Of a stretch of DNA of 64,000 nucleotides, positions 3,463 through 14,302 are shown one piece after another. A program made the position numbers and the translations under genes. How positions within the stretch are numbered: the stretch's first letter is position 1; every line of letters starts with the position of its first letter. The stretch is from Thermococcus profundus. Lineage in GTDB: Archaea; Methanobacteriota_B; Thermococci; Thermococcales; Thermococcaceae. The notes beneath the pieces are model-generated. The model saw nothing but the letters and a program-made list of their open reading frames with translations. It searched no databases and had not been told where the DNA came from. The stretch lies in contig NZ_CP014862.1 in the NCBI RefSeq assembly GCF_002214585.1, forward strand, positions 1,736,001 through 1,800,000, in the 5' to 3' direction.

Positions 3463-6400
3463 TCAGCTGGATTCTCCTATCATTGCCATTATCTTCCGGT
3501 GGAGGGCCTTTATCATCTCACGCCTGTCTTCCATTAGGACGACATCACTCGAGCCTATCGCCTCGAGGTTGAAGGCGAAGGGACTCGGAAGCTCGTTCCT
3601 CTCGAAGACCACCTTGATCTTCCCCTTCCTCACCCAGCTGAGGAACAGCTCCGCATTTTCAACGTCCATCTTGTCCTCCATGATCTCCCTGTAAACTTCC
3701 TTCAGGAGCGGGAAGTCCGGATAGTGCTCCTCGAGAACCTTGAGAAGCGAAACCGCTATGACCTGCTGTCTGCCGAGCCTCTTCTTCCTCCCCACGTACC
3801 TCCGAAGGATGAGGAAACCCCTGTTTGCCACGTGCCTGAAGCGCCTCTTCAAAAGCTCCGTGTTGTCAAGGGCCCTCTTTAGTACCTCCCTAAGGTCTTC
3901 AAGCTGGAAGAGGTCTCTGATCTCAGTTTCGCTCAGCCTCGCCTCCTTCGGAACCCTCAGGAGGAAGCCGTTGTCGTTGAGGGCTATGCCGACGTTTACC
4001 CCTTTCCACCGGCTTACAGCGTAGGCAAAGGCCCTGCTGAGGGCGTCGTTGGCCCTTCTCCCTATTAACGTGTGGAAGAAGTACTCGTAGGTATTCTCCT
4101 TCTCGACCTCCTCAACGAGAACCGTCTCGTCATCTGGGATCGTCGAATACCTTTCCTGCTCGCGGAAGTAGGCTATTATAGCTTTAGCGGCCCTCCTGTC
4201 TATGCCATACTTTCTTATCAGTCTCCTGACGGCGTCCTTTCTGTTGAGGAGGCTCTTCACCTCCCTCCTGAAGCGCTGGACATCTAAGGCAAGATCGAAG
4301 CTCAAAGGCAACATCTCCGAGAACCAGGCGGGGATCGTAGGCTTCGCCCCCTCACGGGGAACCACGTATATCTTGTTTCCCCTGCTCTTCACGAACTCGT
4401 AAGTCCTTCCAGCTAAGACGAAGATGTCCCCTGGCATCAGCCTCTCGGCGAACTCCTCCTCAACCGTTCCGATCATCTGCTTGTCCATTGTGTAGACCTT
4501 AATCTTCGCCTCGTCTGGAATTGTTCCGACGTTCATGTAGTAGATCGCCCTCGTCATCTTGCCCCTTCTTCCGAACTTCCCATCTTCCATCCAGATTTTG
4601 GCGTAAACTTTCCTGTCCTCTAGTCCCTCGTAGCCGCCGGAGAGATACTTAAGGACGCTCATGAAGTCCTCAAAGGGAAGCTCGTGGAAGGGATAAGCCC
4701 TCCTAACAAGACGGTAGGCCTCCTCGACCTCCCAGACCTTGTAGAGGGCCATTCCAACGATGTGCTGGACGAGAACATCTAGCGGGTTCTTCGGAATCCT
4801 AACTCTATCAAGCCTTCTGTTCCTCGCGTTGTGCGCTAAAACAGTCACCTCAACGAGGTCGTCTCTGTCGAGGGCGAGGATAACACCCTCGCTGATGTCA
4901 TGTAACCTGTGGCCTGCCCTGCCTATCCTCTGGAGTGCCCTGTTGACGCTCTTCGGCGATCCGATAAGGACGACGAGGTCAATTGTACCAATGTCAATCC
5001 CAAGCTCAAGGCTTGTTGAGCTGTTTTTCGAGAGAAAGCCTTCAACGATGTAGTTTCCGGTTTCAGAGTTTATGATGCCGTAAGCAACATCAATATAGGT
5101 GGGTTCAATCGAAGTTATCCTATCGAAGAATATGCCCCCTTCAGCCAGTTCTCTCAAATAAGATAATTCCTCGAGAACATCCTCAACTCTCTTCTCTTTC
5201 GCCACTTTTTCGTAGAATTCTACAAGGACCCTTAAGTTTCTCCTGCTTATCTCCCTCTCTCCCAACTCAACCTTGACCGGATTATAGAAGCCCATTTTGG
5301 TCATGCGGTATGCGCTTATTCCAAGCCTCTCGCGTATGCTCCTCAAGCGCTTCCCGAGGTTGGGTATGACATCGGAGTTTGAGTACCCCTTATTGTACAT
5401 ACCTTCCCATCCATCATAATTTGACCTCCACGGACGAACAGCATCGAAGAATCTCTTCAGGTATTCTCCACCCAGAACGGAGACAGTGTAAGAGGCTCCC
5501 TTCTTGGGGATTAACCTTCCCCTAAAAGTTTGAAATTCATCGTATTCCATAGTTCTTATTGATGACACTATTCCCAACTGAAGCAGAATGTCTCGTATGC
5601 CCTCGGCGAATCTCTTATTGAACGTCGAAAATCCAGCAGAATAAACCCTCCCCCCCTTTACCTCAAGAAAGCCATCTCCATCAAAGTAGCCGGCCAGGAA
5701 CTCCCTCTTATGCTCTTCAGGTAGCGAATAGATAATACTAGGAAAAGTTCCAAGTTTCGACTTCCGCCCTGTGTCCCCTGTGAGGTTTTTAAAGATGGCC
5801 GGAAGGAGGTTGAAAGAAATTTCCAGGGAATAGGTGCTCTCATTCTGCATCCTTATTGCTCCTTCCACTCCGAATTCTTTTTTGCACAGTTCTTTATACT
5901 TCCCAAGCATTTTCCTGTCAGACGAGAAGAGAGTTAGCGTGCCCCATTTCCACGAGCCGTCCGCCATCCAGAAACCGAGTAGCCTTGCCATGCCTGGTGT
6001 AAACTCAAGGGGAAGCGAGTACTTGCCTTTATCGGAAGTTATCCGCTCGACATCATTTTCTGTTATTGTAAGGCCGAGGTCTTTTAAAACAACACTTAGC
6101 CGCTCCCATCGGAATGGATAGACACCGTTAAGCTGTTTTGTGACGTAAGATGCATTCCATCCCTTCTTTTCAGAGTATGCTTTTATTGAGCCAAATTTTG
6201 CTTGTATTGAAAGCTTTAACTCTCTCAAAAATCCCGGCTTGAGTTTTAGATACGCGTTCTGGGGCAGTAAGTCCAAGGTAGAGACCCTTAAGTTTGGACT
6301 TGGAAGTCTTCTAGCAACTCCAACCCAGCTTCCCTCCTTGAGTTTCCAAGCCTCAACCCATCTCAGCTCTCCATTTTCATCAACGGTTAGGAACTTGTGC

Positions 6401-7626
6401 TCCTTTGTTGCTTTTATCTCGAATCCCAACCGCGTTCTTATCTTGAGGCCTTTCTTCCTGTATTCTACCCTTTGAGGCTCTTTGAACCTGACAAGCTCAG
6501 TGCGGAATCCCCGAACACCTGCAATCATGTTTGAGTTCAAACGCCCTATTTCGACGGGCCCCTTCTCAGTCAGGATTTTTGAATCCCCGGAGACGCATAC
6601 AACTGCCCTCAGCTCTCCCCTCTTCAGCTTCTCCTCGACGTCCAAGCGGACTTCCCTCGAAAGGCTCGAGTGATGGGCCTCTATTAGGCCTTCAAACTCT
6701 GGAAAACGCTTCTTCAGGTTAAAGGCAACCCTTTCCGCACCGCTCCTCGTGTTGGTGAAAATTAATGTCGTCCTGTGCTCCCTTATCAACTCCGCCAGGC
6801 GGTTGTAGAGGGCGTCGCTGAGAGCATTGGCGGGGGTGTAGATTAAATCCTCCACAACGCTCTCAACCCGTATCTCCGTCTGCTTGGCGAAGGAGACGTC
6901 AACTATTAAGCCAGATCTCGGGGTTCCGTCGTCGTTGAAGCCGAAGACGAACTTGGCAACCTCCTCAAGGGGGTGAATCGTCGCACTCAGGCCGATCCTC
7001 ACGAACTCGTTCTCGGCCATCTCTTGAAGTCTCTCAATGCTCAGCGCGAGGTGAGAGCCGCGCTTGTTTTCAGCGAGCGCGTGAACCTCATCTATGATGA
7101 CGTACCTAACCGTCTTCAGCCTCTCACCGAACTTGGGGGCGTTTAAAGCTATGGCAAGGCTTTCTGGTGTGGTTATCAAGATATGGGGCGGCTTCTTCAC
7201 CATCTTGCTCTTCTCGTAGCTCGACGTGTCGCTCGTCCTTATACCAACGCGTATCTCAGGCAGTTCGTAGCCGAGCTCTTTAGCAACTTCATTTATCTCC
7301 GCCAAAGGGCCTTCAAGGTTCCTCTTGATGTCGTTGTTTAGGGCGCGGAGGGGTGAGACGTAGAGGACGTAGATTTTATCCTCAAGCTTGCCTTCCTTTC
7401 CGAGAAGGATAAGTTCGTTTATAGCGGAGAGGAAAGCGGAGAGAGTTTTTCCAGAACCCGTGGGGGAAGAGATGAGGACGTTCTCCCCCCTGTGGATTTC
7501 AAGGACCGCGTAGCGCTGGGGCGGGGTGAAAGTTCCAAACTTCCACTTAAACCACTCCCTAACCGGCTCACTCAGAACGGAGTATATCTCCTCGTCACTG
7601 TACTCCCTCTCGGCCCAGCGTATCAT
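3463..7626 (-). CDS. lhr: Lhr-type superfamily 2 helicase, interrupted by an intein
   Basis: The precursor has 1387 aa; removing the intein leaves an 862-aa helicase, normal for archaeal Lhr-Core. Motifs in order are FTPPQRYAV (Q motif), SSPTGSGKT (53-61, Walker A), IIDEVHAL (Walker B), SATI (motif III), LIFTNTRSGAERV (motif IV), SSTSLELGIDIG (motif V, right after the intein) and QRIGRAGHR (motif VI), then winged-helix and Lhr C-terminal regions. Lhr proteins are 3'-5' DNA translocases and helicases linked to DNA repair. A TATA-like box at 7648-7658 places transcription start within a few bases of the ATG at 7626, so the mRNA may be leaderless. The metallophosphoesterase gene ends 46 bases upstream, a pairing that suggests a joint repair role. 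Confidence 0.95.
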   Translation of the reverse strand: MIRWAEREYSDEEIYSVLSEPVREWFKWKFGTFTPPQRYAVLEIHRGENVLISSPTGSGKTLSAFLSAINELILLGKEGKLEDKIYVLYVSPLRALNNDIKRNLEGPLAEINEVAKELGYELPEIRVGIRTSDTSSYEKSKMVKKPPHILITTPESLAIALNAPKFGERLKTVRYVIIDEVHALAENKRGSHLALSIERLQEMAENEFVRIGLSATIHPLEEVAKFVFGFNDDGTPRSGLIVDVSFAKQTEIRVESVVEDLIYTPANALSDALYNRLAELIREHRTTLIFTNTRSGAERVAFNLKKRFPEFEGLIEAHHSSLSREVRLDVEEKLKRGELRAVVCVSGDSKILTEKGPVEIGRLNSNMIAGVRGFRTELVRFKEPQRVEYRKKGLKIRTRLGFEIKATKEHKFLTVDENGELRWVEAWKLKEGSWVGVARRLPSPNLRVSTLDLLPQNAYLKLKPGFLRELKLSIQAKFGSIKAYSEKKGWNASYVTKQLNGVYPFRWERLSVVLKDLGLTITENDVERITSDKGKYSLPLEFTPGMARLLGFWMADGSWKWGTLTLFSSDRKMLGKYKELCKKEFGVEGAIRMQNESTYSLEISFNLLPAIFKNLTGDTGRKSKLGTFPSIIYSLPEEHKREFLAGYFDGDGFLEVKGGRVYSAGFSTFNKRFAEGIRDILLQLGIVSSIRTMEYDEFQTFRGRLIPKKGASYTVSVLGGEYLKRFFDAVRPWRSNYDGWEGMYNKGYSNSDVIPNLGKRLRSIRERLGISAYRMTKMGFYNPVKVELGEREISRRNLRVLVEFYEKVAKEKRVEDVLEELSYLRELAEGGIFFDRITSIEPTYIDVAYGIINSETGNYIVEGFLSKNSSTSLELGIDIGTIDLVVLIGSPKSVNRALQRIGRAGHRLHDISEGVILALDRDDLVEVTVLAHNARNRRLDRVRIPKNPLDVLVQHIVGMALYKVWEVEEAYRLVRRAYPFHELPFEDFMSVLKYLSGGYEGLEDRKVYAKIWMEDGKFGRRGKMTRAIYYMNVGTIPDEAKIKVYTMDKQMIGTVEEEFAERLMPGDIFVLAGRTYEFVKSRGNKIYVVPREGAKPTIPAWFSEMLPLSFDLALDVQRFRREVKSLLNRKDAVRRLIRKYGIDRRAAKAIIAYFREQERYSTIPDDETVLVEEVEKENTYEYFFHTLIGRRANDALSRAFAYAVSRWKGVNVGIALNDNGFLLRVPKEARLSETEIRDLFQLEDLREVLKRALDNTELLKRRFRHVANRGFLILRRYVGRKKRLGRQQVIAVSLLKVLEEHYPDFPLLKEVYREIMEDKMDVENAELFLSWVRKGKIKVVFERNELPSPFAFNLEAIGSSDVVLMEDRREMIKALHRKIMAMIGESS
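5023..6597 (-). mobile_element. LAGLIDADG intein inserted in Lhr motif V
   Basis: This encodes 525 residues, Cys344 to Asn868 of the precursor. The N-terminal splicing block is CVSGDSKILTEKGPVEIG; block B contains TKEH with the usual Thr and His; the end is NYIVEGFLSKN followed by Ser as the +1 extein residue. Two LAGLIDADG homing-endonuclease motifs are present, LLGFWMADGS (549-558) and LAGYFDGDGF (644-653). Excision rejoins RAVV to SSTSLELGIDIG, restoring helicase motif V. The penultimate residue is Lys, not the usual His. The DNA looks more AT-rich than the flanking extein, in keeping with horizontal origin. A start at Ser346 is possible but would leave two extra residues in the extein. 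Confidence 0.92.
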
Positions 7627-7672: not shown

Positions 7673-8362
7673 TCAAACCATACTGAGCCTCCTCAGGGCT
7701 TCCATGAGCTTCCCCAGCTCTCCAAAGTCAAGTACTTCACCCTCTAAGGGGACCATAACCCTGAGCTTTGATGTCTCGAACTTTTGAAGGAACGGAGAAA
7801 CTATCTCCCTCGTCACGTCGTTCCCGTAGGCCCAAGGGCTGAAGGCCGGAAGGACTATCAGCTCCTCCCCAGCCAGAAATGCCGGAACCTTTACCGCGGC
7901 ACCAACCTCGTCCCTCAGCCTTATAGCCGGATGCTCGTGGCCGATTATGAAGCGCTCCCCTTCCTCAAGCCTGTGGCCGTGGACAACTTTCCAGCCCGAG
8001 AGCTCGAGCTCATCAACTATCTCAACCCCAAGCTCCCTCAGCCATAGGATCCCGACGTCGTGATTGCCCCGCACGAGGATTATCTCATCCACAAGTCTGC
8101 TAATTCTCTCGAAGAACGCTCTGAGCTCCCGCATCTCCCTCTTCAGCGGGACGAAGGAGTGTTTGAGGTCGCCGTCTATGATGAGCCTTTTCGGCTTCTC
8201 CCTCTCAAGAAGGCTTTGAAGGGAGGAGATCATCTCGTCCAGGAGTTTGGGAATGTAGTGGCCCTCACTGACCATGGCTTCCTCAAAGCCTATGTGGAGA
8301 TCCGCAACGACGAGGGCGTTCCCGGCTTTTAGGGCCTTCTCGGGGAGGAAAGTGAACTTCAT
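7673..8362 (-). CDS. Lhr-associated calcineurin-like metallophosphoesterase
   Basis: The 229-aa protein shows the full set of metal ligands of the calcineurin-like phosphoesterase fold: VADLHIGF (D-x-H), IDGDLKHSF (G-D), VRGNHDVG (G-N-H-D), VVHGH and IIGHEHP (G-H-x-H). It belongs with the small archaeal SbcD/Mre11-related phosphoesterases and probably hydrolyses phosphodiester bonds in nucleic acid using two metal ions. No membrane segment or signal peptide is present. The stop lies 46 bases before lhr on the same strand. A TATA-like run at 8383-8392 sits about 25 bases before the ATG at 8362, so translation is probably leaderless. Confidence 0.85.
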   Translation of the reverse strand: MKFTFLPEKALKAGNALVVADLHIGFEEAMVSEGHYIPKLLDEMISSLQSLLEREKPKRLIIDGDLKHSFVPLKREMRELRAFFERISRLVDEIILVRGNHDVGILWLRELGVEIVDELELSGWKVVHGHRLEEGERFIIGHEHPAIRLRDEVGAAVKVPAFLAGEELIVLPAFSPWAYGNDVTREIVSPFLQKFETSKLRVMVPLEGEVLDFGELGKLMEALRRLSMV

Positions 8363-8382
8363 GGGGGAAGAATGAAAATGCA

Positions 8383-8392
8383 GTTAAAAAAG
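8383..8392 (-). promoter_or_regulatory. TATA box of the metallophosphoesterase gene
   Basis: The minus strand reads CTTTTTTAAC, centred about 25 bases before the ATG at 8362. That distance predicts a leaderless mRNA. The remaining AT-rich sequence up to 8595 shows no gene. Confidence 0.45.
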
Positions 8393-8595
8393 ATTACCTG
8401 CCCTATTTTGAGTACTCAGATTAACGTGTGGTTCAATTGGTGTTTTCCCGTATCTTTCTTCCAACTCCCAAGACGTTTATGTACTAACTTCAAAAGGCTG
8501 ATAAATAGGAGTTTGAAGGTTTGAATTCTGCAAGTTAAATTATGGAATTATACCAGTTGAATTTATACATGTTTATGTAAAATATTTGTGGGATT

Positions 8596-9843
8596 TTGTA
8601 CTCAGCTCACGCGAGAAATCCCTTTGTAGATCAACACACTAGAATGAGCTTTGAAATATCAATATTTACATTTTTGTATAGTAACTTTTTTAAAGCTACG
8701 GATTTATTGTCCGACGAAGTCTTCCTGAGGTGCACGAGAACGTGGAAGAAAACAATCGCCCTGCTCTTAGGGCTCTTGATCCTAGGTCTGACGGTCAGTA
8801 GCGCGAGCGCAGCAGCGAGCGTTGTCCATCCGATCGGATCCCAGGCCAACGGCAACATTAATGTTCCACCGGGAGTTAATCCAGGGATAAAGCCAGGGGA
8901 CGGGATTCGACCTCAGGTCTGGTGGTTTTTCCTTGGCTTGATAGTTCTCGATTTTGCTGCCCATTGGCTCCTGGAACACTACGTCTCCCCAGACGTTGCT
9001 GCAGTCTACGATGCCGTGAGCACGCTTATTGAGCCAGAGAAAGTTGCAGAAAAACTGGGGGTTAAAGGGGCAAAACTGGGAATCAAAGTGATCAGCCACG
9101 ATAAAGTGTTGATTGGTCTTTTCAAGGACAATAAGGTTGTCAAAAAGTTCACGTACGCGTCGAAGGGTATTGCAGAATGGGTTAAAGAGAAACTTGGAGA
9201 GGAGTACAGATTAAAGATCGTTGAGAAGTACGTTGTTAAAGATGGAGGGCTAAAAGATGGGAAAGACTTTGACGAGATAGCGGGAACCTTGAAGAAACTA
9301 AAAGAAGAGGAAAAGATGATAACTAACATTAATGCCATAAGGCTCATCGTTGATAGAGGATGGGACGTCAAAAAGCTTGAAAGGGTGCTTAGTGATGCAA
9401 AAAGCGTTAATAATGGAGGAAAAGACTTGGTAAGTAGCATCAACCGGGAACTAAAGGAATATGCAACCGGCAAGCGGAAAGACTTAGGAGGTCATTTATA
9501 TGAGGCTGAAATCGTGAGCCATCTTAAACGAAGCGGGTGGGAAGTTGAAGAAGTTGGGAGACAAGTTATGACATCAAGTGGGAAAACGGAAATTGATATC
9601 ATCGCGAACCAGGGGTCAGAAACCGTGTTAATAGAATGTAAAAGAGGCTTTGATGGAATAGATACAAGACAAATAACAAGACAGGCTGAATACGCCAAAA
9701 GTCACGGCATAAAAAAGATAAAGATATACTACGCTAGGGGACCATCATATCCACCGTTTTACACCCTCCAAGAACTCCGGGAGATTGAGTCCAAATATAA
9801 CATCGAGATAAGCTTGGTTTATCGTACTTCAAACTTTAACTGA
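8596..9843 (+). CDS. Exported or membrane protein with C-terminal PD-(D/E)XK nuclease domain
   Basis: The open frame encodes up to 415 aa but the start is unresolved. A TATA-like TTTTTTAAAG at 8686-8694 favours a start at TTG 8707 or later, which would put the signal peptide (RTWKKTIALLLGLLILGLT, then SSASA) at the N-terminus. A second hydrophobic stretch follows (WWFFLGLIVLDFAAHWLL). The last 118 residues look like a restriction-endonuclease fold: helix GGHLYEAEIVSHL, core D334 in KTEIDII, and E347-C-K349 in VLIECKRG, the D...ExK triad. The layout, export signal then a variable nuclease tip, resembles polymorphic toxins. Codon use looks more AT-rich than in neighbours. Alternative: a membrane-bound housekeeping nuclease. 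Confidence 0.7.
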   Translation: MYSAHARNPFVDQHTRMSFEISIFTFLYSNFFKATDLLSDEVFLRCTRTWKKTIALLLGLLILGLTVSSASAAASVVHPIGSQANGNINVPPGVNPGIKPGDGIRPQVWWFFLGLIVLDFAAHWLLEHYVSPDVAAVYDAVSTLIEPEKVAEKLGVKGAKLGIKVISHDKVLIGLFKDNKVVKKFTYASKGIAEWVKEKLGEEYRLKIVEKYVVKDGGLKDGKDFDEIAGTLKKLKEEEKMITNINAIRLIVDRGWDVKKLERVLSDAKSVNNGGKDLVSSINRELKEYATGKRKDLGGHLYEAEIVSHLKRSGWEVEEVGRQVMTSSGKTEIDIIANQGSETVLIECKRGFDGIDTRQITRQAEYAKSHGIKKIKIYYARGPSYPPFYTLQELREIESKYNIEISLVYRTSNFN

Positions 9844-9890
9844 GCACCTTTTTAATATTTTTATAAAACTACTGACAGGGGGATGATCTT

Positions 9891-10739
9891 ATGGGCGTTG
9901 ATCACTACATGTACTTTGTCTTTGATGACGCTCCAGAGGAGGTAATCGAGTTTCTCGAAGAGACTTTTAGAGTAATGATGGATTCTCCTAAGACGGATTA
10001 TTCAAACCGTGTGGTGAATTACCTGAAGAGGAAGGGGGTTCTCAAAAAGAACGTTCAATTAACCCATGAGGGGGTTGTGTTTCTTCAAGAACCGCTGAGG
10101 GTCGGCGATGGCGGAACCATCGAGGATGCGGATTTCAGACTCTATGAGGTATCTGGATATTCCGTTCTCGAACTCCACCCCAACCCGAGAAACTGGTGGC
10201 CAAACGTTAGAGATGTTGATTTGTTTAAATTCCTTGGAAAGTTCCTTAAGGAGGGAGCAGTCCTCGTAAGTGGGTACAGGGACGATATAAACCTGGAAGA
10301 GATCGGTTTTGGTGTCAACAGCAGGTACCTCCTGATTCAATGGCTGGTTGATATCGCACGAGAAGGCATTGTCCGCAAGATTCCTTCGGGGCTGACGATG
10401 GTTCGTAAAGGCTACGTGAAACTTGGTGAAGGCCTGTACGAGGTCTCGATACCCTGGCGTTCAAACAAGAGGGGATTCCTATTCGTAACAGAGTTGATAG
10501 ACTACACCGTCCTATGGTTCCTTGGTAGCGTTGACTTTAACGATCCGGAGAACGTTTACGAGTCCCTCTGCGATCCTTGGCAACTATCCAACGACGTGAC
10601 GATGCCAGTCATGCTGCCCCTGGAAACTGCTAGGAGGATAAGGCGAGAAGAGTTGGAGAAACTCGTAAAACGAATATTCAACGCTCACGTATCTGGGGAC
10701 TACGAGTCCTCCCCGTGCGGAGAAATATGGAGGAATTAA
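9891..10739 (+). CDS. Orphan 282-aa soluble protein downstream of the nuclease gene
   Basis: I do not recognise a family. The protein begins MGVDHYMYFVFDDAPEEVI, is acidic, tryptophan-rich and apparently globular, with no signal peptide or membrane segment. A TATA-like TTTTTAATATTTTTATAAAA at 9849-9868 and a GGGGGATGATC binding site before ATG 9891 indicate its own promoter. Its place directly after the exported nuclease gene makes it the first candidate for an immunity or partner protein; this is inference from position only. Confidence 0.65.
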   Translation: MGVDHYMYFVFDDAPEEVIEFLEETFRVMMDSPKTDYSNRVVNYLKRKGVLKKNVQLTHEGVVFLQEPLRVGDGGTIEDADFRLYEVSGYSVLELHPNPRNWWPNVRDVDLFKFLGKFLKEGAVLVSGYRDDINLEEIGFGVNSRYLLIQWLVDIAREGIVRKIPSGLTMVRKGYVKLGEGLYEVSIPWRSNKRGFLFVTELIDYTVLWFLGSVDFNDPENVYESLCDPWQLSNDVTMPVMLPLETARRIRREELEKLVKRIFNAHVSGDYESSPCGEIWRN

Positions 10740-10802
10740 AAGAAGCTGTCAGAAAGTGAAACATGAATGTTAGATTGGACTTCAATTGACGGGATGATAT
10801 TG

Positions 10803-11354
10803 ATGAGGGGGGAGTATTTTCTGGTTCCGAGCAGGCTCTTGCTTCTTTCCTTTACCCCGTTTAAAGACTACGAGGGGGTTATCCACTCCGGGGAGGGAGT
10901 GTTCCTCGTGGAGCCCCTTGGAGTTAAGGTTAGCGTCTTCGTCCCATATGGAAAGCACGCTGAAGAACTCTCAAAACTCGAAGGCAAGTACGTTGAAGTG
11001 ATCATCGATCCACCGTACTTTGAAGCCTCAGGCCCCGTGAACGCTGAAGCGCCATCAATAACCCCGGAAACCCCCGCCTCACGGTATCTCCTAGTAGGCC
11101 TTTTCAATATCATCGAGCCCGAATGGGGACTCTTCGAGTGCGGGAACCTGAGGTTCCCAATTCGGGGACTGGTGGAAACTCAAAATGGGAAAAATTTCTT
11201 CGTGGGACATGACCTCAGGATAGAAGTTCCAGGGTGGGACGAATGGCCAGGGAGCTCAAAACCGGTGAAAATTGCTTGGATAAAGCTGAGAAAAGTAAGG
11301 CTCTATGGATACCTCCCAAAGAAATCCAAGGGGGTCAGAATATGGAGGTCATAA
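10803..11354 (+). CDS. Orphan beta-rich protein, paralogue of the next gene
   Basis: The product has 183 aa from ATG 10803 (MRGEYFLVPSRLL), chosen over ATG 10767 because GGGATGAT lies just before it and because the paralogue at 11342 starts at the equivalent point. Shared stretches with that paralogue include PFKDYEGV/PFKDFQGG, HSGxxxFLVEPxG, EVIIDPPYFE/DVVIDPPYFE and the FECGNL box. Secondary structure appears mostly beta strand. No family is recognised. The stop overlaps the next start by 13 bases, so the two were translated together. It could be one of a set of variable immunity-like proteins. Confidence 0.6.
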   Translation: MRGEYFLVPSRLLLLSFTPFKDYEGVIHSGEGVFLVEPLGVKVSVFVPYGKHAEELSKLEGKYVEVIIDPPYFEASGPVNAEAPSITPETPASRYLLVGLFNIIEPEWGLFECGNLRFPIRGLVETQNGKNFFVGHDLRIEVPGWDEWPGSSKPVKIAWIKLRKVRLYGYLPKKSKGVRIWRS

Positions 11355-11801
11355 CCAGCAGGCTCAGGTTGGTGTCTCTCTATCCGTTCAAGGACTTCCA
11401 GGGGGGGTTCCGTCCACTCCGGAAAAGCACTGTTCCTTGTAGAGCCGATGGGGAAAGTAATAGAGGTCTTCCTTCCCGAGCTGGAGGACGTTCTCAACCT
11501 CGTGGGGAGGGAGAACGGTTATGTGGATGTTGTGATCGATCCACCCTACTTTGAGGTCGTTGGGCCGGCACGCATTGAGGAACCCCTGATCCAAGAGGAG
11601 CCGAAGGTTAAGGAGTTTGGGCCCTCAACCTACCGCCTGATAGGACGTCTCAGGAGAACCCAGGGGGACTGTGGGGTCTTTGAGTGCGGGAACCTGGGGT
11701 TTGAAGTGTGCTTTCGTGGGGAGGGGGAGTGGGTAGAGCTGAAGAACGTGAGGTTCTACGGGTACATTGCGGAAACTTCCAAAAATGACCGGAGAAGATA
11801 A
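11342..11801 (+). pseudogene. Frameshifted paralogue of the preceding orphan gene
   Basis: The gene starts at ATG 11342 (MEVITSRLRLVSLYPFKDFQ) and continues in another frame from about 11408 (SVHSGKALFLVEPMGKVIEV) to 11801. Joining the frames gives about 152 aa alignable along its length with the upstream gene (PPYFE, FECGNL, VRFYGY). The break lies in a run of seven G at 11401-11407; six G would restore the frame. It is either a recent inactivation, a slippage-controlled phase-variable gene, or a sequencing error in a homopolymer. Confidence 0.65.
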
Positions 11802-11864
11802 AGACCCGTGATCTAACTCAGCCAAGCCCTTCCAAAGTCCAGACAAAACAAATGAGGTGGTCTT

Positions 11865-12482
11865 ATGAAGGAGATAACGCCCGTGCCCGTCCGAGGAATA
11901 GTCCTTTCCATTAGAATCAAGGATCTTCCGGAGTATCATGGCCTGCTCTCGGAGGAGTTCAGTGCCTTCATCCCCGATAAGGGGATCGTTCTCCCCTCGA
12001 TAGAGAACACGGAGGAACCCCTCCACCCAGAGATCCTCGAATCCTACGAAAACCGCAAACCAGTTGAGTTCGTCCTCGAGCTGGTGCCAGAGGCCTTCAA
12101 AATAACCGAAGGCGAGGAGACGATCGAGTACGTTCATTATCATCCGACGAAGAGGTACTACGGCAGAAGGATAAGGGTCAACTGGAACATGATGAGGGGG
12201 TTCATAAGGTCGGAGATAAAACTTAGGGGAAAGATAACCCGGATCGGAAGGGAGTACTCAACTTCATTAAATCAGTATGGTGATTATGTGCTGGAAGTAT
12301 TCCCTTTAGGGGTTCCGGTTTACGTGAAGCTACCTCCAAGAGAGTTCCGCAGGCTAAAACCCGGAGTTGGGGACGTTATAGAGGCCTCCGCCTTCTGGTT
12401 CTACAGCAGAGTGCCGGGTGATGAAAGCGTGAGGATTTGGGCGGTGAATGAGGGGGAGGGGTACTATGAGGGCAGTTGGTAA
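11865..12482 (+). CDS. Orphan 205-aa protein of the accessory island
   Basis: The protein begins MKEITPVPVRGIVLSIRIKD after a GAGGTGGTCTT binding site. It is soluble, rich in predicted beta strands and aromatic residues (YVHYHPTKRYYGRR, SAFWFYSRV), without signal peptide or membrane helices. I do not recognise a family; the strand-rich layout would suit an OB- or SH3-like barrel. Its 3' end overlaps the next gene by 17 bases, so the two form one transcription unit. It belongs to the run of orphan genes behind the exported nuclease. Confidence 0.55.
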   Translation: MKEITPVPVRGIVLSIRIKDLPEYHGLLSEEFSAFIPDKGIVLPSIENTEEPLHPEILESYENRKPVEFVLELVPEAFKITEGEETIEYVHYHPTKRYYGRRIRVNWNMMRGFIRSEIKLRGKITRIGREYSTSLNQYGDYVLEVFPLGVPVYVKLPPREFRRLKPGVGDVIEASAFWFYSRVPGDESVRIWAVNEGEGYYEGSW

Positions 12483-12909
12483 GGTCGCCTTCTTCGATGG
12501 AGAGCGGGCGTTGATACTCGTGAGGAGGTACCGCAGGCGGGGCATAAAGCGGGAAATGGCGGGCCGAAACCCATGGATTCCCATTCCCAGAGTTTATATT
12601 CCGGAGGAACTCAGGGAGAAGGTAGAGCTCCTCCACCGCACTGGAGAAGTCTTTGAGGTCGAGTTTGCTCTTAAAGGAGAGGTGACGGGGGCCGGTATGA
12701 AGGGGTATTACGGGTTGGGAGTGAGGTTTACCCGGGATGGTGTTGAGTACTGGGTGAATGGTTACTCGGTGAAGAATGGAGTGGTTGATGTTCTAGGTAT
12801 ACCATTTAGAGTCGAGGAAGTGCCGGAAATCGAGTGGGTGTACGCGAGGGGAAAGAAACTGGAACTTAGCGACATCCCCCAGGATCTGAAAAATGGAGAG
12901 GACACTTAG
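12466..12909 (+). CDS. Orphan 147-aa basic protein of the accessory island
   Basis: The start is ATG 12466 (MRAVGKVAFFDGERALILV), inside the end of the preceding gene and preceded by GGGGAGGGG; an in-frame ATG at 12448 lacks a comparable site. The N-terminal half is basic (RRYRRRGIKREMAGR), the rest strand-rich (GYYGLGVRF, WVNGYSV). No family is recognised. The overlap implies translational coupling with the upstream orphan gene. Confidence 0.55.
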   Translation: MRAVGKVAFFDGERALILVRRYRRRGIKREMAGRNPWIPIPRVYIPEELREKVELLHRTGEVFEVEFALKGEVTGAGMKGYYGLGVRFTRDGVEYWVNGYSVKNGVVDVLGIPFRVEEVPEIEWVYARGKKLELSDIPQDLKNGEDT

Positions 12910-12919
12910 GGGTGAGCTG

Positions 12920-13015
12920 ATGCTACGGAGTCTCCCCACTGGTTTATTTTCGATGAAAGTCCAAATATTCGAGAGGTTCGTTAGTCCGAAGTTCAAGATC
13001 GTGGAAAAACCATAA
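12920..13015 (+). CDS. Possible 31-residue ORF or gene remnant
   Basis: ATG 12920 follows GGGGTGAGCTG, a good binding site 11 bases after the stop of the preceding gene, and opens a frame of 31 codons (MLRSLPTGLF...). It may be the stump of a sixth island gene. The rest up to 13124 shows nothing recognisable. Confidence 0.2.
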   Translation: MLRSLPTGLFSMKVQIFERFVSPKFKIVEKP

Positions 13016-13124
13016 TTTGAAGGAACCTCTCAGCAGACCAAGGGCCAGAATTTAATGTGCCGTTAATTTTCCATTTATTTTCTATGCGGTTCACAAAGAA
13101 TGGTTAAGAAAAAGAAATGGCCGT

Positions 13125-14204
13125 TTAATCCAGCACCAGCTCAACCCAGTTCTCCCTTCCGAGCTTGTAGACGCGGACGAGGCCGCGCTCTTCGAGCCTC
13201 TTGAACATCCTCCATGCTGTCGTCTTCGGAAGGCCGAGTGCATCCCTGACCTTGGATTGCGGGGCCTTTCCTCCGTTCTCCATGAGGTATATCAGCGCTC
13301 CCCTCTCGTCGTCGTTGAGATCCGGGAGGGAGTCTATTTTCTCCCTGAATCTCTGAAGCGCGTCCGAGTTCGAACCGCTCTCGGCTTTTTCAGGAGCGCT
13401 TCGACGGCGCAGGTATAGGTAGGCAACCCCCACAATTACCAAGATGCCCACCAGGACACCTGCCAGCTTACCGGCCGAGGAACCGCCGGCTCCGCCACCG
13501 GGGGTCGTTGTGGTAGTTCCAGTGGATGAGGCGGGAGTTGTTGTGGACGTCGTGGTGGTGCTTGGGGATGTAGATGAGGACGATGAAGTGGAGGATCCGT
13601 TATCCCCACCTGGTAAGGCTGTTGAGGTAGTAGACGATGTTGATGACGTTGAGGAGCTCGAAGTTCTCGTTGAACCCTGACCTTCCGAGGAGGATGTTGT
13701 CGTGGTCGTCACCTGGATCGGGATTACGTAGGAGACGCTGACGTTCCCGGCGGGCATTAGGATCGTACTTCCGCGTATCTCCAGGGGAATATCGCTGAGG
13801 TCGACGATGACGGCATCGGAGGGGAGGGTTATCTCAACGGGGATTGGGCTGTCGAGTGAAACAGTCCACACGGCACCTTCCTTGGATGTAAGATCAGGGG
13901 TGTAGTAGGAGAGCTGGACTGTGCTAGCGTTTCCAAAATAGACGGTTACGTTGCCGCTGTTCACCTCAATGGGAAGGAGGTTGCCCTCTCCGTCCGTCGC
14001 CACTAGGCCCTCAACGTTCCGGCCCAGGAGGGGGATATCCACCGCAACGCTGTAGTTGGCCGTTGATAGGGTCTCGTTGACCAGGACATAGCCGTCCTCG
14101 TACACGGTGAGTGCAATTGAATCAACCGACCGCGCACTTACAGGGATTCCCGTGAACAGCATGAAGGACACCAGTATTATGGTGAGGGCCATTGCCCTGC
14201 TCAT
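13125..14204 (-). CDS. Membrane-anchored winged-helix regulator with surface domain
   Basis: The product has 359 aa: signal peptide (MSRAMALTIILVSFMLFTGI), a beta-sandwich-like extracellular domain of about 145 residues, a Thr/Ser-rich low-complexity stalk of about 90 residues, one transmembrane helix (LAGVLVGILVIVGVAYLYL) followed by RRR, and a cytoplasmic winged helix (about 285-359; GKAPQSKVRDALGLPKTTAW as recognition region). Topology places the DNA-binding domain inside and the sensor domain outside, so it looks like a one-component transmembrane regulator. ATG 14204 is chosen because AGGAGGTG lies five bases upstream; the GTG at 14210 overlaps that site. The secreted helical protein gene lies upstream on the same strand. 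Confidence 0.8.
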   Translation of the reverse strand: MSRAMALTIILVSFMLFTGIPVSARSVDSIALTVYEDGYVLVNETLSTANYSVAVDIPLLGRNVEGLVATDGEGNLLPIEVNSGNVTVYFGNASTVQLSYYTPDLTSKEGAVWTVSLDSPIPVEITLPSDAVIVDLSDIPLEIRGSTILMPAGNVSVSYVIPIQVTTTTTSSSEGQGSTRTSSSSTSSTSSTTSTALPGGDNGSSTSSSSSTSPSTTTTSTTTPASSTGTTTTTPGGGAGGSSAGKLAGVLVGILVIVGVAYLYLRRRSAPEKAESGSNSDALQRFREKIDSLPDLNDDERGALIYLMENGGKAPQSKVRDALGLPKTTAWRMFKRLEERGLVRVYKLGRENWVELVLD

Positions 14205-14302
14205 TCTCACACCTCCTGTTTACATAACATTCGAGGTCGTTAAAAATCTAACCAGAAAATCCAAGAAAAGTCATGGAAAGAACAAAATCGCGGAAACTGA
14301 GT

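Follow-up and report, generated by a model that had tools for sequence, protein, structure and literature searches.

The window, a stretch of 64,000 nucleotides of the Thermococcus profundus genome, contains an island of approximately 8365–13126 with six open reading frames (genes 1–6, all on the forward strand), whose predicted places agreed with our own ORF check. The island is flanked on the left by a metallophosphoesterase gene (7673–8362, reverse strand) and on the right by a gene for a DUF7343/winged-helix membrane protein (13125–14210, reverse strand). In nine relatives (L167–L175), these two genes are direct neighbours; the spacer between them is approximately 35 bp in most relatives read out, including G041, the closest relative by flanking gene (88% identity), and about 4.7 kb in the window. 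Because the flanking genes adjoin in the nine relatives with an empty site, the T. profundus locus is, by this comparison, a 4.7-kb insertion, and it ends near 13126 rather than at 13015, where the original prediction had placed its limit. No target-site duplication was seen at the island ends, only 9-mer inverted matches. Searches of plasmid, phage and viral-contig sequences with gene 1 gave no matches, and no delivery apparatus was identified in or near the island. Elsewhere in the window, the product of an Lhr-type helicase gene (3463–7626, reverse strand) includes a LAGLIDADG-domain intein (residues approximately 386–868), with which a GC dip at 5000–6500 coincides.

Alignment with homologues, such as that of locus L084, placed the putative toxin gene (gene 1) at 8740–9843 (forward strand, 367 codons). 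Starts at 8596, as predicted originally, or at 8644 were rejected, because homologues align from the codon at 8740 and the similarity between homologues upstream of it is broken by stop codons, fitting a promoter instead. The codon at 8740–8742 is ACG, mostly ATG in homologues (for example, L084), and a Shine–Dalgarno sequence, GAGGTG (8727–8732), stands seven bases ahead of it. As ACG occupies the start position, expression of the toxin in the window strain is doubtful, and its translation there may be weak or absent. Other family members have CTG (L098 and L100) or TTG (L099 and L102) at this position, which suggests that weak starts recur across the family.

The predicted gene 1 product is built of consecutive modules. 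It begins with a Sec-type signal peptide (8740–8817, forward strand), recognized from the sequence and its Kyte–Doolittle profile, which consists of KK, the hydrophobic core IALLLGLLILGLTV and SSASA/AA, with ASA/A at its end, and which reaches a best 19-residue Kyte–Doolittle mean of 2.17. The conservation of this Sec-like signal at the N-terminus and its hydrophobicity fit the original prediction of an exported protein. A conserved linker follows (8818–8916, forward strand), in which 22 of 34 residues are identical to the BECR toxin of L084, its best match; the similarity stops there, at the 3′ limit of the part in common with that toxin. The next region (8917–9480, forward strand), comprising a second hydrophobic stretch and a middle (pre-toxin) domain, is common to REase-type toxins and the EndoU-type toxin L102. 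Gene 1 is the most AT-rich gene, in line with the prediction: its GC content is 0.447, and window genes of 150 aa or longer average 0.543 (sd 0.033). The composition of gene 1 shifts along its length, from 0.561 in the signal and linker region to 0.435 in the middle and 0.407 in the nuclease domain.

Upstream of the toxin gene, alignment of the regions ahead of family members and an exact pattern search defined a family promoter signature (8686–8712, forward strand), composed of a TATA-like TTTTTTAAA (8686–8694) and an imperfect palindrome, GGATTTATTGTCC (8700–8712). The TATA-like box and GGATTTRTTRTCC stand ahead of most family members at a near-constant distance. Across 61 genus genomes, the exact pattern search revealed 15 distinct sites, spread over 13 genomes; each lies at a toxin gene of the family or at the L128 remnant. 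A reversed control pattern gave no site in the same genomes. The imperfect palindrome GGATTTRTTRTCC beside a TATA-like box was specific to the toxin family (the window and 14 further distinct sites). It is possible, if somewhat doubtful, that these loci form an undescribed family found solely in Thermococcaceae, whose promoter, palindromic box, signal peptide and linker move together as a single launch module. If so, one regulator reading GGATTTRTTRTCC would switch all toxins of the family, and toxin ends and immunity genes would be exchanged behind a constant module.

The C-terminal part of gene 1 (9490–9843, forward strand) was assigned to the PD-(D/E)XK nucleases by alignment, Pfam and a structure model. 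The residues D286, E299 and K301 are invariant in aligned relatives and present in the window toxin, and the toxin frame is open throughout with all catalytic residues intact. Its matches to Hjc, Mrr_cat and YraN/UPF0102 fall just short of the curated cut-offs. The predicted structure of the gene 1 product is confident from residue approximately 68, and AF1548 (E 4.5e-4) and EcoT38I (1.5e-3) are among its best fold matches in the PDB. The intact motif and the fold match support the original description of the protein as nuclease-tipped, with Pfam matches that are below threshold. The best PADLOC match, to a CARF-PDDEXK CRISPR ancillary nuclease, covers only residues 234–323, mostly the nuclease part, and Pfam gave no match to a CARF sensor domain or to an Ig-type domain in gene 1.

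Searches of 94 Thermococcaceae genomes revealed matches to the toxin family in 30, with long matches in eleven; many other genomes match only the first approximately 60 residues (signal and linker) or only the C-terminus. Across Thermococcaceae, promoter, signal peptide and linker are found repeatedly ahead of differing C-termini, which form two sets, with PD-(D/E)XK (REase) and BECR/EndoU-like RNase folds. Within the BECR set, several members match PBECR3, PBECR2 or EndoU_bacteria, all below threshold, and conserved histidines are present; none of the C-termini scanned, of either set, reaches the Pfam cut-offs. The modular architecture and the exchange of C-termini can be read directly from a pair of relatives, L102 and L095, which share 74% identity over residues 1–211 and have unrelated C-terminal ends of approximately 110 residues. 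Behind the swapped C-terminus of L102, an REase C-terminus and gene 2 are still present downstream, and such orphan C-terminus/immunity cassettes were found in L102, L105, L106 and L111. The L128 toxin has an internal deletion, and gene 2 is retained there. In a further locus, L092 (G016:C18), three toxin starts of the family (two with an REase and one with a BECR C-terminus) and four copies of gene 2 form a tandem array. An N-terminal module thus stands ahead of at least two unrelated nuclease folds, and neither an invariant C-terminus nor an absence of linked orphan genes was observed: C-termini vary, and the genes downstream track the C-terminal type, as the predicted reading of the island as a polymorphic toxin–immunity locus implies.

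The five genes behind the toxin gene were predicted to lack recognizable families, and none of them reaches a Pfam, NCBIfam or PADLOC cut-off. Gene 2 (9891–10739, forward strand) encodes a protein of 282 aa in which no signal peptide was seen. After downstream-gene types had been assigned by profile searches (single-linkage clustering had merged unrelated genes), the gene 2 type came next on the same strand behind every REase C-terminus (20/20) and behind none of the BECR ones (0/41; Fisher p 1.6e-16). Mantel tests gave r 0.68–0.74 (p 1e-4) between C-terminus and gene 2 distances, r 0.38 between N-terminus and gene 2, and 0.14 (p 0.16) between C-terminus and N-terminus. These p values overstate the evidence, because the loci were gathered through searches with the toxin and gene 2 and include related sequences that do not count as independent. 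Immunity linkage extends to the BECR toxins, where the next genes are similar in 12/15 pairs with similar C-termini and in 0/121 other pairs. Its linkage to the nuclease C-terminus, and its co-variation more with the C-terminus than with the N-terminus, make gene 2 the cognate immunity candidate, and it is likely the only gene of the island to neutralize the window toxin. The model of its product (pLDDT 92) has as its best PDB fold match 6d7y_B, from a CdiA-tip/immunity complex, a weak match with E 0.01 and a low TM-score. Among 27 family members there was no consistent Pfam match, sequence searches of the PDB gave no match, and among 115 genomes of the phylum none beyond Thermococcaceae carried gene 2. 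Homologues of gene 2, single or paired, also occur at L124–L127 with no REase C-terminus detected.

Genes 3 to 6 have other associations. Gene 3 (10767–11354) and gene 4 (11342–11801), both on the forward strand, are paralogues with 44% identity, as had been predicted for two of the genes. A run of seven G (11401–11407) puts gene 4 out of frame, and the match of this gene to gene 3 and L085 (9148–9630) runs on across two frames; the shift may reflect slippage, phase variation, sequencing error or decay. In L086, a homologue of gene 3 lies immediately behind a BECR-type toxin (gap 18 bp), and the others lie in toxin-less arrays. Gene 5 (11865–12482, forward strand) has a 69% identical homologue directly behind the complete BECR toxin of L084, followed there by a 70% identical homologue of gene 6 (12466–12909, forward strand), the second gene of a gene 5–6 cassette whose linkage is also found in G016, G023 and G070. 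In L085, genes 5, 6, 3 and a paralogue of gene 3 lie behind a BECR remnant. Members of this gene set are also found beside leuS in G015, G023 and G070, where no toxin was detected. The predicted overlap of several genes held for pairs 3/4 and 5/6 and for no other pair.

Because relatives of gene 3 and of genes 5–6 directly follow BECR toxins elsewhere, these genes are best read as orphan immunity genes, and genes 3–6 are probably not further immunities to the window toxin. One toxin with several immunity proteins had been predicted; for gene 2 this is likely correct, and for genes 3–6 it probably is not.

The window locus itself appears chimeric. Its promoter, signal and linker match those of L084, a BECR locus, best, and this similarity ends at approximately 8916 and resumes at approximately 11830, just after the stop codon of the L084 toxin, from where it spans genes 5 and 6. 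Given this break and resumption, the locus looks like an element of the L084 type whose toxin end was replaced by another together with gene 2 (and genes 3–4), the older immunity genes (5–6) having apparently been kept. An insertion at the chromosomal site of L084 itself was considered and rejected; the flanks differ, which places L084 elsewhere on the chromosome.

On the strength of these comparisons, we conclude that the locus very probably belongs to a Thermococcaceae-wide polymorphic toxin–immunity family that would act as follows. The constant part (promoter, Sec signal, linker and hydrophobic stretch) would bring the toxin to the cell surface or across it, and the middle domain would carry the variable C-terminal nuclease, here PD-(D/E)XK, which would enter a neighbouring cell and cut nucleic acid there, probably DNA. 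The signal-less and presumably cytosolic gene 2 protein would bind and block the nuclease in kin. Genes 3–6 would be immunities of other toxin types that stayed when recombination replaced the original BECR-type C-terminus, and they may guard against rivals armed with those types.

The alternative that survives best overlaps with this explanation and concerns the present state of the island, which may, with a lesser though real probability, be a decayed toxin locus that now serves only for its immunity genes or is drifting. The ACG at the toxin start, the frameshift in gene 4, the toxin-less immunity arrays in relatives and the internal deletion of the L128 toxin with gene 2 kept would all fit such decay; however, the 367-codon toxin frame is open with its catalytic residues all intact, and near-cognate or weak starts (CTG and TTG) also occur in other family members with open frames. 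That genes 2–6 all neutralize the window toxin, as their shared direction behind it could suggest, is improbable: relatives of gene 3 and of genes 5–6 either accompany BECR toxins or stand alone, and none was seen behind any other REase C-terminus. We consider it still less probable that gene 1 encodes an intracellular nuclease of DNA repair, restriction or CRISPR-linked defence followed by unrelated accessory genes. Its domain does resemble Hjc, Mrr and CARF-PDDEXK nucleases, yet family members begin with a conserved signal peptide, BECR folds can take the place of the nuclease domain, the linkage of that domain to gene 2 is strict, and the island yielded no CARF, methyltransferase or helicase partner. 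Least credible is a VARTIG-type recognition module of Thermococcales in place of a toxin system, which would share the archaeal order, the hypervariability and a secreted first gene with small orphan genes behind it (PMC8416519), but no Ig-like domain was found in the island, the downstream genes of VARTIG mostly have membrane segments, and the toxin island carries nuclease domains where the VARTIG authors could identify no toxin domain (PMC8416519).

The reading of the locus as a polymorphic toxin–immunity system bears on antagonism between archaea, which is widely predicted and hardly tested in the literature we found. The family offers defined toxin/immunity pairs, including presumably heat-stable nucleases and their blockers, and some species of the group are genetically tractable. 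Through the exchanges, orphan immunities and shared promoter box of the family, a single regulator and a delivery route become testable ideas. Bacterial polymorphic toxins are well described (Zhang et al. 2012, PMC3482391), and most immunity superfamilies are absent from archaea according to the same work. Archaeal polymorphic toxins had already been predicted (Makarova et al. 2019, mBio 10:e00715-19, as cited in PMC8416519), and such systems are described in PMC8416519 as being without experimental characterization. In the literature we found, the view that they are little known in Thermococcales is a fair one, qualified by those earlier predictions as the citing paper reports them.

Among known systems, the VARTIG islands (PMC8416519) resemble the window locus in being hypervariable, headed by a secreted protein and found in the same order of archaea; unlike it, they are built on Ig domains, with no identified toxin domain. 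The archaeal toxins of Makarova et al. 2019, as far as they are represented in the paper that cites them, are likewise predicted nuclease toxins with immunity genes. The short secreted polymorphic toxins of bacteria (PMC3482391) have in common with the family an export signal, a constant N-terminus, an exchangeable C-terminal nuclease, an adjacent immunity gene and orphan C-terminus/immunity cassettes. They differ in that the N-terminal module and immunity families of the window have no relatives in the libraries searched, and the window toxin is only about 370 aa long, with no repeat, HINT or protease domain found. Compared with CDI systems, gene 1 is short (367 aa), the island gave no CdiB-like or repeat match, and the host is an archaeon. 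In CdiA-CT/CdiI orphan modules, displaced toxin ends and their immunity genes stay downstream after tip exchange, and in the same way the family described here retains displaced ends and immunity genes downstream of its toxins.
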